Shown here: in pieces, positions 4,350-19,685 of the stretch
Numbering within the stretch: the first letter of the stretch is position 1
Layout of the letters: every line of letters begins with the position of its first letter
Source: Burkholderiales bacterium
Lineage (GTDB): Bacteria > Pseudomonadota > Gammaproteobacteria > Burkholderiales > Burkholderiaceae_C
Assembly (NCBI GenBank): GCA_016213265.1
Contig: JACRBA010000136.1
Coordinates: forward strand, 1 to 33,679
DNA: 33,679 nt
Reading direction: 5' to 3'
Notes under the pieces: generated by a model
What the model was told of the DNA's origin: nothing
Databases searched by the model: none
Seen by the model: only the letters and a program-made list of their open reading frames with translations
Position numbers and translations under genes: made by a program

Positions 4350-6862
4350 TCGGCTCTCCTCCCATGACGAATAGCAACAACCGCACCACCCTCGGGCGGC
4401 TCGGCGGAGGGGCGCCAGTGCCAGTAGCGCCGACGCACATCTCGGGTGCAGGTGGCACCATCATCGCTCCATACCCATGCACCGCAATGGTCCGTGCGCA
4501 CCACAGGGACACTGGCGCCGGCGTAGCGGGCCAGTACCATGGGGTGCGGGTGGCCGTAGCGGTTGCGGTAGCCGGCCTGCAGCACGGCGATGCGAGGCCG
4601 CACCGCCGCCAGCAAGTCGTCGCTGGACGAGGTGCGGCTGCCGTGGTGGGGCACCACCAGCACGTCCGCGCGCAGGCCGGCTGAGGCCTCGGCGGACGCG
4701 GCCAGCGCCTGCTCCTGTGCCGCCTCGATGTCGCTGGTGAGCAGGGCCGCCCGGCCGTCGCTGGCGACCACGCGCAGCACGCAGCTGCGCGCGTTGGAGC
4801 TGGCCTCGTACGGGGCGGCCGCCAGCCCGCCCGGTGGGGGATGCAGCACCTCGAAGCGCACGCCGTCCCAGGCCCACGACTGGCCCGCTGCGCATTCCCG
4901 GTGCGGCACCGGCTCGCCACCGGGCCCGCGCGCGGTGCGCAAGGGGTGGCCGGGCTCCAGGCTGCTGAGCACCTCGTCCACGGCCATGGCCTGCAGCACC
5001 GCGGCGGCGCCGCCGACATGGTCGGTGTCACGGTGGCTGAGCACCAGCCGGTCGATGCGGCACTCGCCCAGCGCGCGCATCAGCGGCAGCAGCACGCGCT
5101 CGCCGGCGTCGCTGTCCAGCCCATAGCGTGGCCCGGCATCGTGCAGCAGCAGAGGCTGTGCCGTGCGCACCAGCACGGCACTGCCCTGCCCCACGTCGGC
5201 CACCACGAGCTCGAACTGCCCGGCCGCCGGGCGCGGCACCGCCGGCCACAGCAGCGGCAGCAGCAGCGGCAGGCCCGCGAACCGGGCACGCCAGGGCAGC
5301 GGCAGCACGAGCAAGGCGCCGCCCGCCAGGCCCTGCGCCGCCGCCCAGGCCGGCGCGGCCGGCACCGTCCACACGGCCCAGGGCGCACTCGCTGCCGCCT
5401 GAAGGCCCAGCCACAGGGGCGCGAGCGCCCAGCCGGCCAGCGTCCAGGCGCCCGGCCACACCAGGCCGGCCAGGGCCAGCGGCGTGACCACCGCGGTGAC
5501 CCAGGGCACGGCCACGAGGTTGGCCACGAAGCCGACGAGCGAGATCTGCTCGAACATCACCAGCGTGAGCGGTGCCAGCGCCAGGGTGGCCACCACCTGC
5601 TGGTGCAGCCCCGCGCGCAGCCACGCCGCCCACCGGGCGCGCGGGCCGGCGGGGGCCTCGTCCGCCGCGGGGGCTGCCTGGCTGGCGATCAGCAGCGCCA
5701 CGGCGGTGAACGACAACCAGAAGCCGGGCTGCAACAGCGCCCACGGGTCCAGCGCCGCCACCATCGCCCCGGCCGCGGCGCACACCAGCAGGGGCGGCCA
5801 GCGCAGGCCCAGCCCCTGGATCAACGCGGTGCCGGCCAGCATCCCCACCGTGCGCTGCGCGGGCACGCCCCAGCCGGCCAGGGCGGCATAGCCGGCCGCC
5901 AGGGCCACACCGCCCCAGCGCGCTGCGGCCGGTGCCGGCCAGGCATGCACCAGGCGTCGGCTGCGCCGCCAGAGCCGGCCCACCACGCCCGCGGCGAGCC
6001 AGGCGAACAGCGTCACGTGCAGCCCGCTGATCGACATGAGGTGGGCGACGCCGGTCTGGCGGAACACCGCCCAGGCGGGCGCGTCGATGGCGGATTGGTC
6101 GCCCACCGCCAGCGCGGCCACCACGCCGGCGGCCACCGGGTCGGCCCCGTGCAGCAGGGCGGCGTCGCGCCAGCCCTGCCGCGCGGCGTCCAGGCGGTCG
6201 CGCGGGTGCCAGGCGCGTGGGCCGTCCAGAAGGGCCAGCTCACGCGGGGCCGAGGCGCGCACCTGGCCCGTGGCGCCGATGCCCTGCTCGAACAACCACA
6301 GCTCGGCGTCGAAGCCCTCAGGGTTGAGCACGCCGTGCGGCTGCTTCAGGCGCACCGGCAGCCGCCACCGCTCACCGGCGCGCGGCACGGGGCCGTCCAC
6401 GCCACCCGCCCCGTCGCGGCTGCGCGTCCAGCCCAGGCGCAGCCGCGCCGGCACCCGCAGCGCCTCACCGCCGGGGCGCTGCGCGGCCTCGGTGTCGAGC
6501 AGGAACACGCTGCCCTCCGGGCCGGGCTGGGGCAGGCCGACGACCCGGCCGGTGACCACCATGTCCACGCCTTCCAGCGCGGGGTCCAGTCGGTCGGCCA
6601 GGCGCAGCGCACCCCGCCAGCCCGCCAGCGCGAACGCCAGGGCCGCCGCAGCGACCACCAGCAGAAGACGCCGCGGCGTGCCGGGACGGCCCAGGCGCGA
6701 CGCGGCCAGGCCGAGCGCGGCCACGCCGGCCAGTGCGCCGTACGCACCGGTCGGCCATGCCTGCGCCTGCTGCAGCTGCAGCGCCGTCCCGGCCAGCCAT
6801 GCGGCAGCCAGGGCCGCCACCCAGCCGCCCGCGGCGCTGCTGTCGGCGCCTCCTCCCTGCAT
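4346..6862 (-). CDS. comEC: ComEC/Rec2 DNA-uptake channel protein
   Basis: An 838-residue protein of normal ComEC length. It starts with membrane segments and a DUF4131-like domain (to about residue 200). The Competence domain follows, with many hydrophobic helices and the motif HLMSISGLHVTLFAWLAAG near residue 275. The C-terminal third is a metallo-beta-lactamase-like domain, with VADVGQGSAVLV, the metal-site motif SHRDTDHVGG and VVPHHGSRTSSS. ComEC forms the inner-membrane pore that imports single-stranded DNA during natural transformation; the lactamase-like domain is proposed to degrade the other strand. All landmark motifs are intact. It is divergent from ridA across 50 bases and overlaps the ATP-grasp gene by ATGA, so the two may be co-transcribed. 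No strong ribosome site precedes the chosen ATG. Confidence 0.95.
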   Translation of the reverse strand: MQGGGADSSAAGGWVAALAAAWLAGTALQLQQAQAWPTGAYGALAGVAALGLAASRLGRPGTPRRLLLVVAAAALAFALAGWRGALRLADRLDPALEGVDMVVTGRVVGLPQPGPEGSVFLLDTEAAQRPGGEALRVPARLRLGWTRSRDGAGGVDGPVPRAGERWRLPVRLKQPHGVLNPEGFDAELWLFEQGIGATGQVRASAPRELALLDGPRAWHPRDRLDAARQGWRDAALLHGADPVAAGVVAALAVGDQSAIDAPAWAVFRQTGVAHLMSISGLHVTLFAWLAAGVVGRLWRRSRRLVHAWPAPAAARWGGVALAAGYAALAGWGVPAQRTVGMLAGTALIQGLGLRWPPLLVCAAAGAMVAALDPWALLQPGFWLSFTAVALLIASQAAPAADEAPAGPRARWAAWLRAGLHQQVVATLALAPLTLVMFEQISLVGFVANLVAVPWVTAVVTPLALAGLVWPGAWTLAGWALAPLWLGLQAAASAPWAVWTVPAAPAWAAAQGLAGGALLVLPLPWRARFAGLPLLLPLLWPAVPRPAAGQFELVVADVGQGSAVLVRTAQPLLLHDAGPRYGLDSDAGERVLLPLMRALGECRIDRLVLSHRDTDHVGGAAAVLQAMAVDEVLSSLEPGHPLRTARGPGGEPVPHRECAAGQSWAWDGVRFEVLHPPPGGLAAAPYEASSNARSCVLRVVASDGRAALLTSDIEAAQEQALAASAEASAGLRADVLVVPHHGSRTSSSDDLLAAVRPRIAVLQAGYRNRYGHPHPMVLARYAGASVPVVRTDHCGAWVWSDDGATCTRDVRRRYWHWRPSAEPPEGGAVVAIRHGRRAE

Positions 6863-13260: not shown

Positions 13261-15714
13261 TCAGCTGGCGGCCTTGAACGCCATGACCGCCTGGTTGCGC
13301 AGGGTGCGCAGCAGGCCCAGTTCACTCTCCGCCAGGTCGAGCGGCACGGTCTGGCGGTCGGCGTAGATCAGGGCGAAGGGCGCGCCCTTCAGCATCATGG
13401 GCAGCAGCAGGAAGCTGCAGGCCGGTGCGGGGCGGTACCACGCCGGCAGCCGCGGGCCCAGGCTGGCCGAACGCGCGTCCGCGATCAGGGTGTCGGCCCC
13501 TTTCATGCAGGCGGCGGCGAACAGGTCGGCCGGCTGCGGGCGTCGCACATCCACCGAGAATCGCTGGGCGAACGCCTCGCCGCCCGGCCCCAGGCCCAGG
13601 CGGCCCTGCAGCAGCCCGGTGCGCGGGTCGCGCAGGCAGAACACCACACGGTCGAACCCCAGGCCCTCGTGCATCGCGCCCAGGATCAGAGTGAGCACCT
13701 CATTGAGGCGGAAGCTGTCGCCCGCCATCGAGTGCGTGACGTTGGCGATGCCGGCCGTGAGCACGGCATGCGCGTTGGCCGGCGTCGCAGTGGCGGGCAG
13801 CAGCAGCGTCGGGGTGTCATCGGTGGCCACCGGGGCGGCCGGTGAGGCCTGCGGCGCGCCGGTGGCCGGCGCGGCGGTGCTGGCCGCTGCCGCTTCCCGG
13901 CCAGCCGCCGCTGTGACGGTGTCCATCAGGCGCCGCGCGCGGGCCTGGGCCGGCACCTCGAGCTTCAGGCTCGCGGCCATTTCCACCAGGTGCACACGCG
14001 CGAGCTTGACGGCGCTCGCCATGTCCTCGGGCCGCACGGCCAGCGCGCGCGCGAACCGGTCGGCGACCTGCATCACCCGCGCATCGGCCTGCGCCGGGTC
14101 GCCGTCGAGCAGGGCCTGCACGATCTCCCCCGCTGCACGCACCCGCCAGCGCATGCGCTCGATGGGCGGCTCGACCGGCCGCGTGGGCACCTCGTCCTGC
14201 GGCGGGCTCATCACGCGCCGCAGCGTGTCGGGCAGGCCCCACGACTGGGCGATGCCCTGGGCGAGGTCGTCGTAGCTCAGGCCCAGCACGTCGGCCGCGG
14301 CACGGGCCTCGCTCGGCGCGGGCGCACCGGCGTCGCGCAGGCCGCTGCGCGCGGTGCGCTGCCGCACCTGCGCCGCCTCCTCGGGAAAGTAGTACTCCGC
14401 CAGCATGCGGCCCAGGTGGCTCAGCATGCCGCCCAGGAAGGCCTCTTCGCGCTCGCGCGAGGGCGGCGAGAGCTGGTCCACCAGTGTGGCGGTGAGCAGC
14501 GCCTGGAGGAACAGCTCCTTCATGCGCTGGGCGTGCGCCTGGTCCTTCATGTGCTCCAGCAGCACGACCGAGAGCGCCATGTTGCGGATGCCGGCGAAGC
14601 CGATCAGCGCGGCGGCCCGCGAGACGGTGGCGATCTCGCCGGCGCCCACGTGCCGGAAGTGGGCCGTGTTGACCAGCCGCAGCAGCTTCTGCGTCAGCGC
14701 CACGTCCTTCAGGATCTCGGCCGACAGCACCCGCAGGCTCTCGTTCTCAGAGGCCGTGACGCGCTGGATGCGCGTGACCGAGTCGGACAGAGCGGGGAAG
14801 TCGCCATGCAGCCGCATGCGCCGCAGCAGGAACTCCAGCGTGCCATGGCCACCCGGCTGCGGCGGCGCCTCCGGCGGCGTGAGCCAGCGCGCCAGCGCAT
14901 CGCGGAACTCGGTGGCGCTCGCAAATCGCGATTCCGGCAGCGGCGCGGCGGCGCGCAGCACCATGCTGCGCAGCGCATCATCGACGGCCACGCCCGCGTC
15001 CGACGGCCAGTGCACGGGCTCATCGATGGCCTGCCGCAGCGCGGCTGCAGGCGTGGACGGAATGGGCCGCAAGGGCCCACCCAGCAGCAGCTGGCCCAGC
15101 ATCAGCCCAGCGGCGAACACGTCCATGGCCGGCGACGGCGCCTGGCCGCGCGCCGCCTCCGGCGAGATGTAGCCCGGCGTGCCCACGATGCGGCCATCGT
15201 GCGCATCGGCCAGGCGCGCCGCGATGCCGAAGTCCATCACGCGTGCGCGGCCGTCGCTGCCGATGAGGATGTTGGACGGCTTCAGGTCGCGGTGCACCAC
15301 CCCGCGTGCGTGGGCGAACGCCAAAGCATCGAGCACCTCGCGCATAAGCTCGGCCGCTTCCGGTGCGGGCATCGGACCGAGGCCCCGCAGACGGTCAGCC
15401 AGTGTCGTGCCTTCCACACGCTCGAACACCAGGAACACCGTGTCGCCGTCCTGGCCCGCCTCGTACACCGGCACGATGCCCGGATGGGTGAGCGCGCTGG
15501 CTGCCCGCGCCTCGGACAGCCATTCGCTGGCCGCCTGGGACTGCGCCCGGTCGGTCATCACCTTGACGGCCACCTCGCGCTGCAGCTGCGGGTCCCAGCC
15601 CAGCCACACCGCCGCCTGGGCCCCGCGGCCCAGCACCCGGCGCAGCTCGAAACGGCCCACCCGCTGCACGGGGGCGGAGCCGCTGGGAGGGCGCGCACTC
15701 ACCACGGTCGTCAT
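13261..15714 (-). CDS. Ser/Thr protein kinase - HDOD - GAF signalling protein
   Basis: An 817-residue cytoplasmic protein with three parts. Residues 20-275 form a Hanks-type kinase with all key residues: the glycine loop LGRGAQAAV (28-36), Lys51 in VAVKVM, HRDLKPSN with Asp143/Lys145/Asn148, DFG Asp161-Gly163 and GTPGYISPE. Residues about 305-510 are an HDOD domain (GDFPALSDSVTRI, LKDVALTQKLLRLVNTAHF, VSRAAALIGFAGIRNMAL, GGMLSHLGRMLAEYYFPEEA). An Ala/Pro-rich linker (about 600-660) leads to a C-terminal GAF-like domain (FRLNEVLTLILGAMHEGLGFDRVVFCLRD). No transmembrane helix is seen. Its ATG overlaps the stop of the upstream pseudokinase gene (ATGA, 15711-15714), so the pair is translationally coupled. 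HDOD proteins act in signalling networks; the substrate and signal here are unknown. Confidence 0.9.
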   Translation of the reverse strand: MTTVVSARPPSGSAPVQRVGRFELRRVLGRGAQAAVWLGWDPQLQREVAVKVMTDRAQSQAASEWLSEARAASALTHPGIVPVYEAGQDGDTVFLVFERVEGTTLADRLRGLGPMPAPEAAELMREVLDALAFAHARGVVHRDLKPSNILIGSDGRARVMDFGIAARLADAHDGRIVGTPGYISPEAARGQAPSPAMDVFAAGLMLGQLLLGGPLRPIPSTPAAALRQAIDEPVHWPSDAGVAVDDALRSMVLRAAAPLPESRFASATEFRDALARWLTPPEAPPQPGGHGTLEFLLRRMRLHGDFPALSDSVTRIQRVTASENESLRVLSAEILKDVALTQKLLRLVNTAHFRHVGAGEIATVSRAAALIGFAGIRNMALSVVLLEHMKDQAHAQRMKELFLQALLTATLVDQLSPPSREREEAFLGGMLSHLGRMLAEYYFPEEAAQVRQRTARSGLRDAGAPAPSEARAAADVLGLSYDDLAQGIAQSWGLPDTLRRVMSPPQDEVPTRPVEPPIERMRWRVRAAGEIVQALLDGDPAQADARVMQVADRFARALAVRPEDMASAVKLARVHLVEMAASLKLEVPAQARARRLMDTVTAAAGREAAAASTAAPATGAPQASPAAPVATDDTPTLLLPATATPANAHAVLTAGIANVTHSMAGDSFRLNEVLTLILGAMHEGLGFDRVVFCLRDPRTGLLQGRLGLGPGGEAFAQRFSVDVRRPQPADLFAAACMKGADTLIADARSASLGPRLPAWYRPAPACSFLLLPMMLKGAPFALIYADRQTVPLDLAESELGLLRTLRNQAVMAFKAAS

Positions 15715-17573
15715 GACAAGGTTCCCGCGTCGGCCTTGGGCGTGCCGCGCGCCGTGCGGGCACCGGCCGCCGTGGGCTGCGGCGCCGGGCCGCCTGCCGT
15801 CGCGCCGGGACCGGGCGGCGTGCGCGGCCGGGCGTCGCCCTGCAACGCCTCCTGGATGTCGCGCCCGCTCATGCCGAGTGCCCGCGCGTAGCGCTGCACC
15901 ACCAGGGCCACGGCTTTGGAGGCATGCCCGGCGGGCAGCATCAGGGCATCGACGAGGTCGTTGGCACAGCTCGCACTCAGGCGAAGAATGTCGGCGTCGC
16001 CGTCTGGCGTGCGCACGGGGGCCGTGGCGGGCACGCGCCGCATCATGTGCTGCACCGACTCGTCCAGGCCCCAATGGCGCGCCACGGCCGCACCGAGCGC
16101 CTCCATGTCGGCCCCCAGCACGGCGAATGAGGCCGCCTCGGCCCCCATGCCGGTCTCTTCCTTGGTCTCGGGCGGCACGCCAGGCGACCGGCTCGGCACG
16201 GTGACGACGGTGGGCTGCATCAGGCGACGGATCTGTGCCGCCTCGTCCGGGTAGTGGTACTGCACCAGCAGGCGTCCCAGGTTCTGCAGCAAGGTGACCA
16301 GGAAGACGACCTCGCCGTCGTAGCCGGCGGGCACCAGCCGGGTGGCGACCCGCCCTGCCCGCTTGGCGCGGCGGATCAGGGCCTCCATCTCGCCCGCGGC
16401 CTGCTCGTTCATGGGGCCGGGCCAGCGCCGCAGCGACAGGGCGGCACGGCGCACGCCGTCCAGCCCGACCATGGCGATGGCCCGCCGCAGCATGAGCACG
16501 GGCCCGTCGCCGGCCGCCCGCCCCGCGGCGAGCTGCGCGCTGTTGACCATGCGCAGCAGCTCGAAGCTGAGCGCAATGTCCTCGAGCAGGAGATCGGCCA
16601 TGTCGCTGGTGCGCGCACTGTCCATCAGCGCCAGGTGCGCCACGCGCTCGGCCGCGCCGGGCTGCGCCGGCAGCGCGCCCACCTGGCGGATGCGGTCCAG
16701 CAGCAGGACCAGCGGCCCGCCATCCTGCTCGGCCGTGGTGCGCAGCCAGCCTTCCAGGGCACGCTGCAGCGTGCGGGCATTGTGGTAGCGGTGCCGCTCC
16801 TGGCGGTCGGTGGCGCGGTTGACGATCGCACGCAGCGGCTCGGGAATGGGCCGCGGCACGGCCCAGGGCAGCCGCACGAACTCCGCGCCCTGCGGCGGCA
16901 TGCGGGCGATCACGCGGCCGAGGTCTTGTTCGTCCAGCGGCGGATGCCCCGCCAGCACCCAGTGCGCCACCAGCCCCAGCCCCAGCACGTCGCCGCCAGC
17001 GGCGTCGCGCACGGCACGCAGCTCGTCCAGCCCGCCCGGCTGCGTCACCGAGGCCCGCGGCGCGCCCGGCACCTCCAGGCCCATCACGGTGACGCGCTGG
17101 TCGTCCGACACGCACAGCCACCAGGGCTGCAGGTCATGGTGGGCCACCCCGGCTTCGTGGGCGAAGGCCAGGCCCTGTGCCGCCTGGGCCAGCCACTCGG
17201 CCAGCTCGGTGGCAGCCATGCCCTGCGCAGACATGCGCTCGGCCCAGGTGACACTCGTCCCACGCTCGTACACCACGTACGGCCAGCGCTCGTGCTCGCC
17301 GATCTCGAGCGCCTTGGCCAGCACGGGGTGATTCAGCCGGGCAGCGCGGCGCACCGCCTGTTGCCAGGCCGCGGCGCCGTCGCCGGGCGGATGCCGGGGC
17401 ATGGCGAGCATCACTTCCCCACCGTCACGGCCATCCATGGCCAGCCACAGCATGCCTCGCTCGCTCTTGCCGAGCAGGCGCAGCAGCTGAAACCGCCCGA
17501 AATGCCGCACCGCGCCGCGCGAAGCGGGGCCCGAAGCGGTGGAGCCGGAAGAGGAGGACGACATGGACACCAT
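15711..17573 (-). CDS. Pseudokinase - HDOD protein
   Basis: A 620-residue protein with the same kinase-then-HDOD order as its downstream partner but no GAF domain. The kinase region (residues about 25-285) looks catalytically dead. The glycine loop reads LLGKSERGM. The VAVK Lys is replaced (VMLAMPR). HRDLKPSN has become HHDLQPWW, keeping the Asp but losing Lys and Asn, and DFG has become VMG. The HDOD part (about 315-510) is recognisable: LLLEDIALSFELLRMVNSAQL, LRRAIAMVGLDGVRRAALSL, LVTLLQNLGRLLVQYHYPDEA. The C-terminal tail is Pro/Ala/Gly-rich. The start is uncertain: ATG at 17573 or 17564 both fit and neither has a strong ribosome site. I infer an allosteric partner for the downstream kinase. 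The 239 bases up to trxA show no convincing promoter for this gene. Confidence 0.85.
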   Translation of the reverse strand: MVSMSSSSSGSTASGPASRGAVRHFGRFQLLRLLGKSERGMLWLAMDGRDGGEVMLAMPRHPPGDGAAAWQQAVRRAARLNHPVLAKALEIGEHERWPYVVYERGTSVTWAERMSAQGMAATELAEWLAQAAQGLAFAHEAGVAHHDLQPWWLCVSDDQRVTVMGLEVPGAPRASVTQPGGLDELRAVRDAAGGDVLGLGLVAHWVLAGHPPLDEQDLGRVIARMPPQGAEFVRLPWAVPRPIPEPLRAIVNRATDRQERHRYHNARTLQRALEGWLRTTAEQDGGPLVLLLDRIRQVGALPAQPGAAERVAHLALMDSARTSDMADLLLEDIALSFELLRMVNSAQLAAGRAAGDGPVLMLRRAIAMVGLDGVRRAALSLRRWPGPMNEQAAGEMEALIRRAKRAGRVATRLVPAGYDGEVVFLVTLLQNLGRLLVQYHYPDEAAQIRRLMQPTVVTVPSRSPGVPPETKEETGMGAEAASFAVLGADMEALGAAVARHWGLDESVQHMMRRVPATAPVRTPDGDADILRLSASCANDLVDALMLPAGHASKAVALVVQRYARALGMSGRDIQEALQGDARPRTPPGPGATAGGPAPQPTAAGARTARGTPKADAGTLS

Positions 17574-17812
17574 GTGGCTGATTCGAGGCCCGGCCATGCG
17601 GTGGGCATGCCGGACATGGCCCGATTGGACCGCGGGGCACCGGCAGGCAGTGCACCGAACTGGACCGGAAAGCGTGACCATTTTGTGTGCCCGGGCCCTT
17701 GTCCAGGCCCCATCGCGCCCCGCCCGCGAGCGCCCGGGCGGACCGCGTGGACGGGGCCTTTATGTCAGAATCTTCACGCCCGGGAAACCCGGCGCCAACG
17801 GAGCCATCCCTC

Positions 17813-18142
17813 ATGAGCAGCGAACTGATCAAGCACATCTCCGACGCCTCGTTCGAGGCAGACGTCCTGAAGTCCGACAAGCCGGTGCTGGTGGACTACT
17901 GGGCCGAATGGTGTGGCCCGTGCAAGATGATCGCCCCCATCCTGGACGAAGCCGCCAAGGACTACGGCGAGCGCCTGCAGGTCGCCAAGATGAACGTCGA
18001 CGAAAACCGCGAAGTGCCCGCCAAGTTCGGCATCCGGGGCATTCCCACGCTGATGCTGTTCAAGGGCGGCCAGCTCGCCGCCACCAAGGTGGGCGCGCTG
18101 TCCAAGGCCCAATTGACCGCTTTCCTCGACGGCCATCTATAA
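17813..18142 (+). CDS. trxA: Thioredoxin 1
   Basis: A 109-residue classical thioredoxin, full length. The active site is [17 protein letters not shown] with Cys34 and Cys37. The cis-proline is in [13 protein letters not shown], and the buried Asp is in VLVDYW. It is the main cytoplasmic disulfide reductant, kept reduced by thioredoxin reductase. The ATG at 17813 gives the standard N-terminus ([15 protein letters not shown]); the frame is open upstream but the extra residues do not resemble thioredoxin. Its final bases carry the -10 element of the rho promoter. The 17574-17812 region upstream holds only an unconvincing -10-like CAGAAT near 17766. Confidence 0.98.
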
Positions 18143-18419: not shown

Positions 18420-19685
18420 ATGCATCTGTCTGAACTCAAGGCGCTTCACGTCTCCGCTCTCATCAAGATGGGCGAAGAGTTGGAGATCGACAACGTCTCG
18501 CGCCTGCGCAAGCAGGAGCTGATGTTCGCGATCATGAAGAAGCGCGCCAAGGCCGGCGAGCAGGTCTTCGGCGATGGCGTGCTGGAAGTGCTGCCCGACG
18601 GATTCGGCTTCCTGCGCTCCATCGACACCAGCTACATGGCGTCCACCGACGACATCTATCTGTCGCCGAGCCAGATCCGCCGCTTCAATCTCCACACCGG
18701 CGACCTGATCGAAGGCGAGGTGCGCGTGCCCAAGGACGGCGAGCGCTACTTCGCGCTGGTCAAGGTCGACCGCGTGAACGGCCTGACGCCGGAGGAGAAC
18801 AAGCACAAGATCATGTTCGAGAACCTGACGCCGCTCTTCCCGAAAGAGGCGTTCAAGCTCGAGCGTGACAACTTCAAGGGCGAGGAGAACATCACCGGCC
18901 GCATCGTCGACCTGATCGCGCCCATCGGCAAGGGCCAGCGCGCACTGCTCGTTGCGCAGCCCAAGACCGGCAAGACGGTGATGATGAAGCACATCGCCCA
19001 CGCGCTGGTGGCCAACCACCCCGAGATCCACCTCATCATGCTGCTCGTGGACGAGCGGCCGGAGGAAGTGACCGAGATGGTGCGCGGCGTGCGCGGTGAG
19101 GTGATCAGTTCCACCTTCGACGAGCCCGCTGCCCGCCATGTGCAGGTGGCCGAGATGGTGATCGAGCGGGCCAAGCGCCTGGTCGAGCTCGGCAAGGACG
19201 TGGTCATCCTGCTCGACTCCATCACCCGCCTGGCGCGCGCCTACAACAACGTGCTGCCCAGCTCCGGCAAGGTGCTGACCGGCGGCGTGGACGCCAACGC
19301 GCTGCAACGCCCCAAGCGCTTCTTCGGCGCCGCCCGCAACGTGGAAGAAGGCGGCTCGCTCACCATCATCGGCACCGCGCTCATCGACACCGGATCCAAG
19401 ATGGACGAGGTGATCTACGAGGAGTTCAAGGGCACCGGCAACTGCGAGATCCACCTGGACCGCCGCATGGCCGAAAAGCGCGTGTACCCCTCGATCCTGA
19501 TCAACAAGTCGGGCACGCGCCGCGAGGAACTCCTGCTCAAGCCGGAGATCCTGCAGAAGACCTGGATCTTGCGCAAGCTGCTGTACAACATGGACGAGAT
19601 CGAGGCGATGGAATTCGTGCTCGACAAGATGAAGGCGAGCAAGAACAACCTCGACTTCTTCGACATGATGCGCCGCGGCGGCTGA
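18420..19685 (+). CDS. rho: Transcription termination factor Rho
   Basis: A 421-residue hexameric RNA helicase. The N-terminal helical domain begins [24 protein letters not shown]. The RNA-binding cold-shock-like domain includes [15 protein letters not shown] and [12 protein letters not shown]. The ATPase core includes the Walker A AQPKTGKT, the Walker B region [16 protein letters not shown], the Q-loop region GSGKVLTGG-like stretch ([11 protein letters not shown]) and the R-loop RKGKR-equivalent late region. Rho loads on C-rich nascent RNA and terminates transcription. The start ATG has AAGGG about ten bases upstream and gives the usual N-terminus; the in-frame open region before it (from 18189) is leader, not protein. 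E. coli rho autoregulates through its leader, and the long leader here suggests the same. Confidence 0.98.

Follow-up and report, generated by a model that had tools for sequence, protein, structure and literature searches.

A conserved HDOD-linked pseudokinase family, found beside and repeatedly without an active kinase-HDOD-GAF paralogue in Burkholderiales

The window, a 33,679-nucleotide stretch of DNA from a Burkholderiales bacterium, carries two adjacent minus-strand genes whose products each place a kinase or kinase-like domain ahead of an HDOD region. Both open reading frames lie at the coordinates given by the original prediction, and the two genes overlap as ATGA, as it had claimed. 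We refer to the upstream product as PSK and to the downstream product as ACT; thioredoxin (trx) and rho genes, relatives of which are also found near PSK in other loci, serve as locus markers.

15711..17573, minus strand: PSK, a pseudokinase-HDOD protein of 620 aa, with its ATG at 17573
16734..17507, minus strand: PSK kinase-like domain, residues about 23-280, from alignment and AF2 model
15834..16718, minus strand: PSK HDOD region, residues about 286-580, bounds set by us (best Pfam stretch 301-453)
15711..15714, minus strand: ATGA overlap of the PSK stop and the ACT start, read from the sequence
13261..15714, minus strand: ACT, a kinase-HDOD-GAF protein of 817 aa, from open reading frame and Pfam
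14869..15657, minus strand: ACT kinase domain with Lys51, Glu68, Asp143, Lys145, Asn148 and Asp161, from Pfam and alignment
13915..14850, minus strand: ACT HDOD region, residues about 289-600, bounds set by us (Pfam 307-502)
13264..13749, minus strand: ACT GAF region, residues about 656-817 (Pfam 670-812)
17813..18142, plus strand: trx, divergent neighbor and locus marker, recognized by eye
18420..19685, plus strand: rho, second locus marker, recognized by eye, start codon picked by us

The longest open reading frame for PSK is 656 aa, from an in-frame ATG at 17681. By the Pfam gathering score (22.9 for HDOD), PSK and ACT are both HDOD proteins, at 72.8 and 101.2 bits, respectively. ACT also scores 145.1 bits for Pkinase and 24.3 for GAF (cut-off of 22.4), and the Pkinase score of PSK is 25.8, under the cut-off of 31.7. 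A search of NCBIfam yielded nothing above its cut-offs, and models of defense systems gave broad matches, as expected of kinases.

Alignment places substitutions at all four positions where the upstream protein had been said to have lost a catalytic residue. In PSK of the window, Ala57 replaces the VAVK Lys, Gln149 the HRDxK Lys, Trp152 the loop Asn, and Gly165 the DFG Asp (residue numbers counted by hand from alignment anchors). PSK also lacks the alpha-C Glu, the APE motif, and the second Gly of the G-loop (Ser37 in LGKSERGM), none of which had been named earlier, and its activation segment is short; the HxD Asp147 is retained (HHD, 145-147). The claim that the downstream copy keeps its catalytic residues and carries a GAF domain is borne out, as ACT keeps the VAVK Lys51, alpha-C Glu68, HRD Asp143, HRDxK Lys145, Asn148, and DFG Asp161 of a predicted active Hanks-type kinase and its GAF match exceeds the Pfam cut-off. 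A pseudokinase is here a kinase fold that has lost at least one of the beta-3 Lys, HRD Asp, and DFG Asp; by predicted fold and by residues PSK is a bacterial Hanks-type pseudokinase, of a class itself known and here linked to HDOD.

Across relatives, these replacements are conserved. The VAVK Lys, HRDxK Lys, and DFG Asp each occur in 0 of 117 distinct PSK kinase domains (0 of 89 in a first, smaller count) and the HxD Asp is present in 114. Substitutions are uniform: the HRDxK Lys became Gln in 102 of 117, the DFG Asp became Gly in 101 of 117, and the G-loop Gly became Ser in 85 of 89. The Gln has turned into Gly or Ala in 11 of 117, mostly in one clade, and the loop Asn persists in a few (3 of 89; 6 of 117), including L048, the first PSK to branch on a tree of 86 rows. 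All ACT domains counted, 88 at first and then 107, carry both the VAVK Lys and the DFG Asp, and 106 of the 107 carry the HRDxK Lys; the larger count was made without two degenerate copies from genus g153 and on an alignment that predates degenerate L194. The median activation segment is 20 residues in PSK versus 27 in ACT. Upstream homologues that keep the catalytic residues were not encountered among the 117, the loop Asn of six apart, where the label PSK or ACT follows the better of two sequence scores and an upstream copy with intact motifs would be labeled ACT. The sole tandem of two intact ACT genes that we met (G049; L056 4505-9393) belongs to a different family of the order and reflects its own duplication, in which the motifs are kept. 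PSK thus represents a conserved kinase-fold family that is predicted to be without catalysis.

In the AF2 model of PSK, block means of confidence are 82-96 over residues 21-280, except for 171-180 at 55. Residues 299-385 are of low confidence, and the first part of HDOD is low in the models of both proteins; the GAF region of the ACT model is mostly above a pLDDT of 80. Foldseek with the PSK model returned PknB first (E 5.5e-11), and the pseudokinase domain of Rv3910 (3otv) had the highest target-normalized TM-score, 0.72, among the matches listed. A PSK profile also matched PknB (E 1e-24), which is the solved sequence nearest to PSK (E 1.3e-12) and to ACT (E 1.1e-44). The ACT model has a short helix (185-188) ahead of alpha-F (195-211), replaced in the PSK model by a single long helix (182-208), so the substrate platform of PSK looks altered or absent in the model.

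Arg10, Leu33, and Asp76 of PknB, which we take to be its back-to-back dimer positions, were compared across the families; titles of the PknB structure matches name L33D/L33E variants. The charged positions are conserved in both PSK and ACT, with Arg at the Arg10 equivalent in 105 of 119 PSK and Glu or Asp at the Asp76 equivalent in 115 of 119. Leu at the Leu33 equivalent is kept in just 14 of 119, and the lack of this central residue in most PSK argues against a PSK-ACT contact that is a plain copy of the PknB dimer, a candidate that we rejected. Paired and unpaired PSK have no clear difference at the three positions, so that this comparison speaks neither for contact nor against it.

Selection on the PSK kinase-like domain resembles that on its active counterpart. 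Among the pairs listed, dN/dS is 0.060-0.390 for the kinase-like domain of PSK (40 of 51 pairs) and 0.047-0.334 for the kinase domain of ACT (40 of 70), in pairs of 78-98.5% protein identity and dS under 1.3, a choice that favors low values and admits some pairs that are one genome under two ids. Unpaired PSK of the window's genus (L038, L039, and L040) have values of 0.060-0.084, and unpaired L036 versus L039 a value of 0.179. At the level of codon substitutions, this shows purifying selection on the PSK kinase-like domain in close pairs.

On the 86-row tree, built from the kinase-like and HDOD parts with a quick method that did not infer a root, 37 PSK fall on one side of a branch with support of 100 and 49 ACT-type proteins on the other. 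This two-sided pattern fits a single old duplication behind PSK and ACT. The duplication origin that had been suggested for the pair is therefore upheld as regards shared descent of the neighbors, and a recent event is not, because the pair spans many genera. The divergences of PSK and ACT are correlated after removal of Rho and Trx distances (partial r of 0.78 between PSK-HDOD and ACT-HDOD in 27 loci with all seven parts). Together with the conserved operon and the gene overlap, this correlation favors contact between the two proteins, but each of the ten domain pairs gave a positive value, and a common history may be the cause.

PSK occurs in 102 of 299 genomes of the window's family, a lower bound obtained with a cut of 432 bits or more plus G119 (377 bits, locus read), weaker matches being outside the count. 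Genomes G257 (440 bits) and G326 (410 bits) were dropped because the best match there is the ACT gene. ACT-type genes with a kinase region, a few of them degenerate, number 105 of 299 genomes, so that the kinase-then-HDOD order, described as rare in the original prediction, is only partly so. Both genes occur in 76 genomes, PSK only in 26, ACT only in 29, and neither in 168, for a co-occurrence odds ratio of 17 in a test that ignores kinship. ACT is directly downstream of PSK in 75 of the 102, and G317 has both on separate contigs. The survey that had been proposed thus found the genes together often, not rarely. Paired loci numbering 44 of 79 have an in-frame NTGA overlap (17 ATGA, 13 GTGA, and 14 TTGA). 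A hand count of 80 named loci gave 68 paired, some with cut or broken ACT frames, nine unpaired, and three too short to judge. Rubrivivax gelatinosus (L124) has the pair, and in Aquincola tertiaricarbonis (L104) PSK is unpaired.

The genera with PSK include Ideonella, Rubrivivax, Aquabacterium, Rhizobacter, Piscinibacter, Roseateles, Albitalea, and Aquincola, as well as other Burkholderiales, a list drawn from 60 relatives and from a scan of named genomes (289 pattern-matching stretches, 198 of them encoding a relative, of which the best 80 were taken). In a sample of 300 genomes of the order, just two, both from the window's family, had a match as strong as those of PSK (965 and 801 bits); the next best genome in that sample scored 332 bits, with an ACT gene. 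ACT-like genes extend to other families of the order.

PSK is repeatedly found without ACT. No ACT was found in 26 of the 102 PSK genomes (E of 1e-130 or better; best three candidates scored per genome). The loci of 22 of these 26 were read, and three of the 26 genomes hold an HDOD-GAF protein without a kinase. In a tree of 114 PSK, 33 of which have no adjacent ACT, the paired/unpaired label changes 15 times, at least 10 of them by well-supported branches. Counts alone fit gain or loss; we read most changes as probable ACT losses because the PSK and ACT parts of the tree group paired genomes much alike. Operon order alone could account for the more frequent loss of ACT. Four genomes of the window's genus (G001, G006, G009, and G013) showed an ACT gene nowhere but at an unrelated locus. 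A distinct ACT, likewise away from the unpaired PSK, is carried by four genomes of this genus (loci L051, L052, L053, and L054); the three included in the 86-row tree (L051, L053, and L054) form their own clade. This ACT may have been acquired. Ten hand-picked genes near unpaired PSK encode AIR-synthase-like (four), major facilitator (two), TatD (one), and dihydroorotate dehydrogenase (one) proteins and two proteins of no family, with no kinase or HDOD protein among the ten.

All 29 ACT-only genomes were read, and trx or rho is in the fetched flank only in G326. Because a degenerate copy follows ACT in this lone case, no ACT was seen next to the markers that lacked a kinase-dead paralogue. The marker is imperfect: of 80 named PSK loci, 66 have trx or rho within the stretch retrieved and 46 within 1.5 kb upstream. 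The 29 include G167, with a degenerate copy alone, and G223, with a degenerate kinase domain. Ten proteins flanking ACT-type genes without PSK at eight loci, chosen by hand where loci are G+C-rich, have no common family; four belong to no family and one is an EAL protein. In L184 an EAL-domain gene (5382-6713) is immediately upstream of the ACT gene, a possible hint of c-di-GMP signaling.

Degenerate relatives occur in other branches of the kinase-HDOD-GAF family. In genus g153 (L151 4120-9024; L152 1076-5882; L191 4455-6854) an active kinase-HDOD-GAF gene is followed by a kinase-dead copy, PS2, that retains GAF, reversing the order in the window; in G167 only the dead copy was found. PS2 of the three loci is placed between PSK and ACT on the tree. 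The data allow a tree that groups PS2 with the ACT of the same genus (p-AU 0.39) and the union of PS2 with PSK has support of just 76, so that the kinase-dead PSK and PS2 may have one or two origins. The ACT-type protein of G223 (L194 3260-5725) has a degenerate kinase domain that has lost the catalytic Asp and the HRDxK Lys; G297 of the same genus has an intact ACT (L185). HDOD-GAF relatives with an eroded or absent kinase domain (L060, L195, L197, L198, L199, L200, and L201) suggest that the kinase part may be dispensable in this family. Eroded kinase parts are present in G018, G078, G304, and G231, and HDOD-GAF proteins without a kinase in G072, G197, and, by sequence match, G278. PSK itself is in two overlapping frames in G095 (L163 3590-5516) and split between its kinase-like and HDOD parts in G142 (L167 3072-4855), from assembly error or decay.

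We favor, at about even confidence, a reading in which a non-catalytic HDOD protein, PSK, forms the core and a sensor kinase, ACT, supplies an optional input. PSK would stem from an ancient duplication of a kinase-HDOD-GAF gene and would have lost the GAF domain afterwards. Its kinase-like domain would serve for binding or scaffolding and so control the HDOD domain of the same protein, presumed to be the output, and through it some presumed target. ACT, with its sensor-like GAF and intact kinase, would be an input produced in step with PSK; we would expect it to bind PSK through like domains, either the two kinase parts or the two HDOD domains, and PSK would probably be a substrate of its kinase. 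As the core of the module, PSK would retain a role where ACT is lost. What comparison of the genes themselves establishes is the conserved replacement of catalytic residues, constraint on the kinase-like domain, two clades, a conserved operon, and repeated survival of PSK without adjacent ACT. From this, the dead copy probably has a job of its own. More tentatively, and with some doubt, we suggest that the module centers on the pseudokinase, with the live kinase as an accessory, the kinase fold serving HDOD mainly as a module for binding and regulation while phosphorylation is optional, and, jointly, that the family may have dropped catalysis again in other branches (G223 and the eroded copies).

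The original prediction saw PSK as an allosteric or scaffolding pseudokinase made in step with its active partner. On the corresponding regulator reading, PSK would above all activate or inhibit ACT by binding the ACT kinase domain and setting its activity, much as ROP5 is required for ROP18. The predicted coupling of a pseudokinase to an active partner stands insofar as the pseudokinase is conserved, the operon tight, and the genes co-occurring; the adjacency in 75 of 102 genomes, the four-base overlaps at 44 of 79 paired loci, the charged PknB dimer positions kept in both proteins, and the absence, in the 29 ACT-only genomes, of any marker-site ACT that lacks a kinase-dead paralogue all favor regulation of ACT. 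The stronger claim is countered chiefly by the recurrence of PSK without ACT: 26 of 102 PSK genomes are without a detected ACT, unpaired PSK looks constrained, and 28 of the 29 ACT-only genomes carry an ACT-type gene without PSK (G167 has the degenerate copy only), so ACT needs no PSK in general. The 26 genomes and the 15 label changes make a pseudokinase that serves only its active neighbor less likely, and activation of ACT is unlikely as the only role of PSK because of these same genomes; we regard the regulator reading as unlikely. If the two proteins instead act apart, PSK would have its own task, for example through a nucleotide-binding or repurposed pocket feeding HDOD, and the operon would reflect tandem duplication and common regulation. 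The recurrent absence of ACT, the conserved pocket pattern of HxD, Gln, and G-loop Ser, and the ten scanned genes near unpaired PSK, free of kinases and HDOD proteins, are consistent with separate tasks, but adjacency is kept in 75 of 102 genomes, whereas flanking proteins of PSK-less ACT loci have no family in common, and the change of Gln to Gly or Ala in 11 of 117 means that the pocket pattern is not strict. We consider separate tasks quite improbable.

Residual catalysis, which is compatible with the other readings, would require PSK to phosphorylate via an unusual route. The near-universal HxD Asp (114 of 117) points that way, as do the DLHK pseudokinases, which keep the HRD Asp and for which models suggest ATP binding (PMC12599244). 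PSK has neither the Lys nor the metal-binding Asp, however, and with its degraded APE, shortened activation segment (median 20 versus 27), and a model in which the helix ahead of alpha-F is not seen, phosphorylation by PSK seems very improbable. Least credible of all is the reading of PSK as a duplicate in decay, on its way to becoming a pseudogene. Its lost catalytic residues, the disrupted copies seen in G095 and G142, and internal stops flagged in 14 of 102 PSK matches could be taken for decay. Yet the seven flagged copies that were read (G014, G270, G187, G197, G278, G091, and G119) each have an uninterrupted frame of at least 568 aa, so the flags there come from matches that overrun the frame end, and dN/dS well under 1 together with PSK-specific conserved residues contradicts decay.

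As far as our searches reach, an HDOD-linked pseudokinase family with an active sister and repeated survival of the dead copy is undescribed in the open-licence literature. Within that literature, PMC12599244 included, we found no paper with both HDOD and pseudokinase, none joining HDOD with Hanks or threonine protein kinase, and none in which at least three of the terms HDOD, protein kinase domain, GAF, and Betaproteobacteria appear together. Bacterial pseudokinases are described as largely unexplored by experiment in PMC12599244. The signal to which an HDOD domain responds, not settled in PMC6543031, is also approachable here. Matched genomes with both genes, with PSK and no ACT, and with ACT and no PSK are available (environmental Ideonella/Rubrivivax group), and the job of a dead bacterial kinase can be asked directly, with and without its live paralogue.

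In its predicted kinase fold, PSK is like the pseudokinase domain of Rv3910 of Mycobacterium tuberculosis, which we take to be MviN, a membrane protein; we know of no HDOD domain in Rv3910. PknB is unlike PSK in being an active kinase, and is a transmembrane receptor with PASTA repeats. MviN recruits an inhibitory protein in cell-wall metabolism, as stated in PMC12599244. This 2025 review lists the bacterial Ser-Thr pseudokinase families ActPs1-3, GLW, CP1, DYD, and DLHK, the functions of which are mostly unknown (PMC12599244). PSK shares with these families a Hanks-type fold, degraded VAIK, HRD, and DFG motifs, and conservation as a family. It differs from them, as described there, in its HDOD fusion, its HxD-x-Gln motif, its position mostly beside an active paralogue, and its restriction to one bacterial family within the genomes sampled. 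PSK is most reminiscent of DLHK and GLW, and lies outside both because the DLHK Asn and the GLW motif are missing. Like the proteobacterial DLHK, it keeps the HRD-type Asp with the Lys and DFG degraded (PMC12599244), and unlike DLHK it is without the Asn (found in just 6 of 117 PSK and replaced by Trp in that of the window). Unlike GLW as there described, it has no GLW in place of HRD, the HxD Asp being present in 114 of 117. GLW proteins have a transmembrane region behind the kinase domain; in PSK, HDOD follows the kinase-like domain. SadB is an HDOD protein reported to bind c-di-GMP and act on motility (PMC6543031). It is like PSK and ACT in its HDOD domain and differs in combining this with a YbaK-like domain, with no kinase-like domain named in the passages of PMC6543031 on it, where the mechanistic role of HDOD is said not to be established. 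In ROP5/ROP18 of Toxoplasma, a pseudokinase is required for the activity of an active kinase (PMC3493473). The PSK-ACT pair may parallel this pair of a eukaryotic parasite in having a pseudokinase work with an active kinase.
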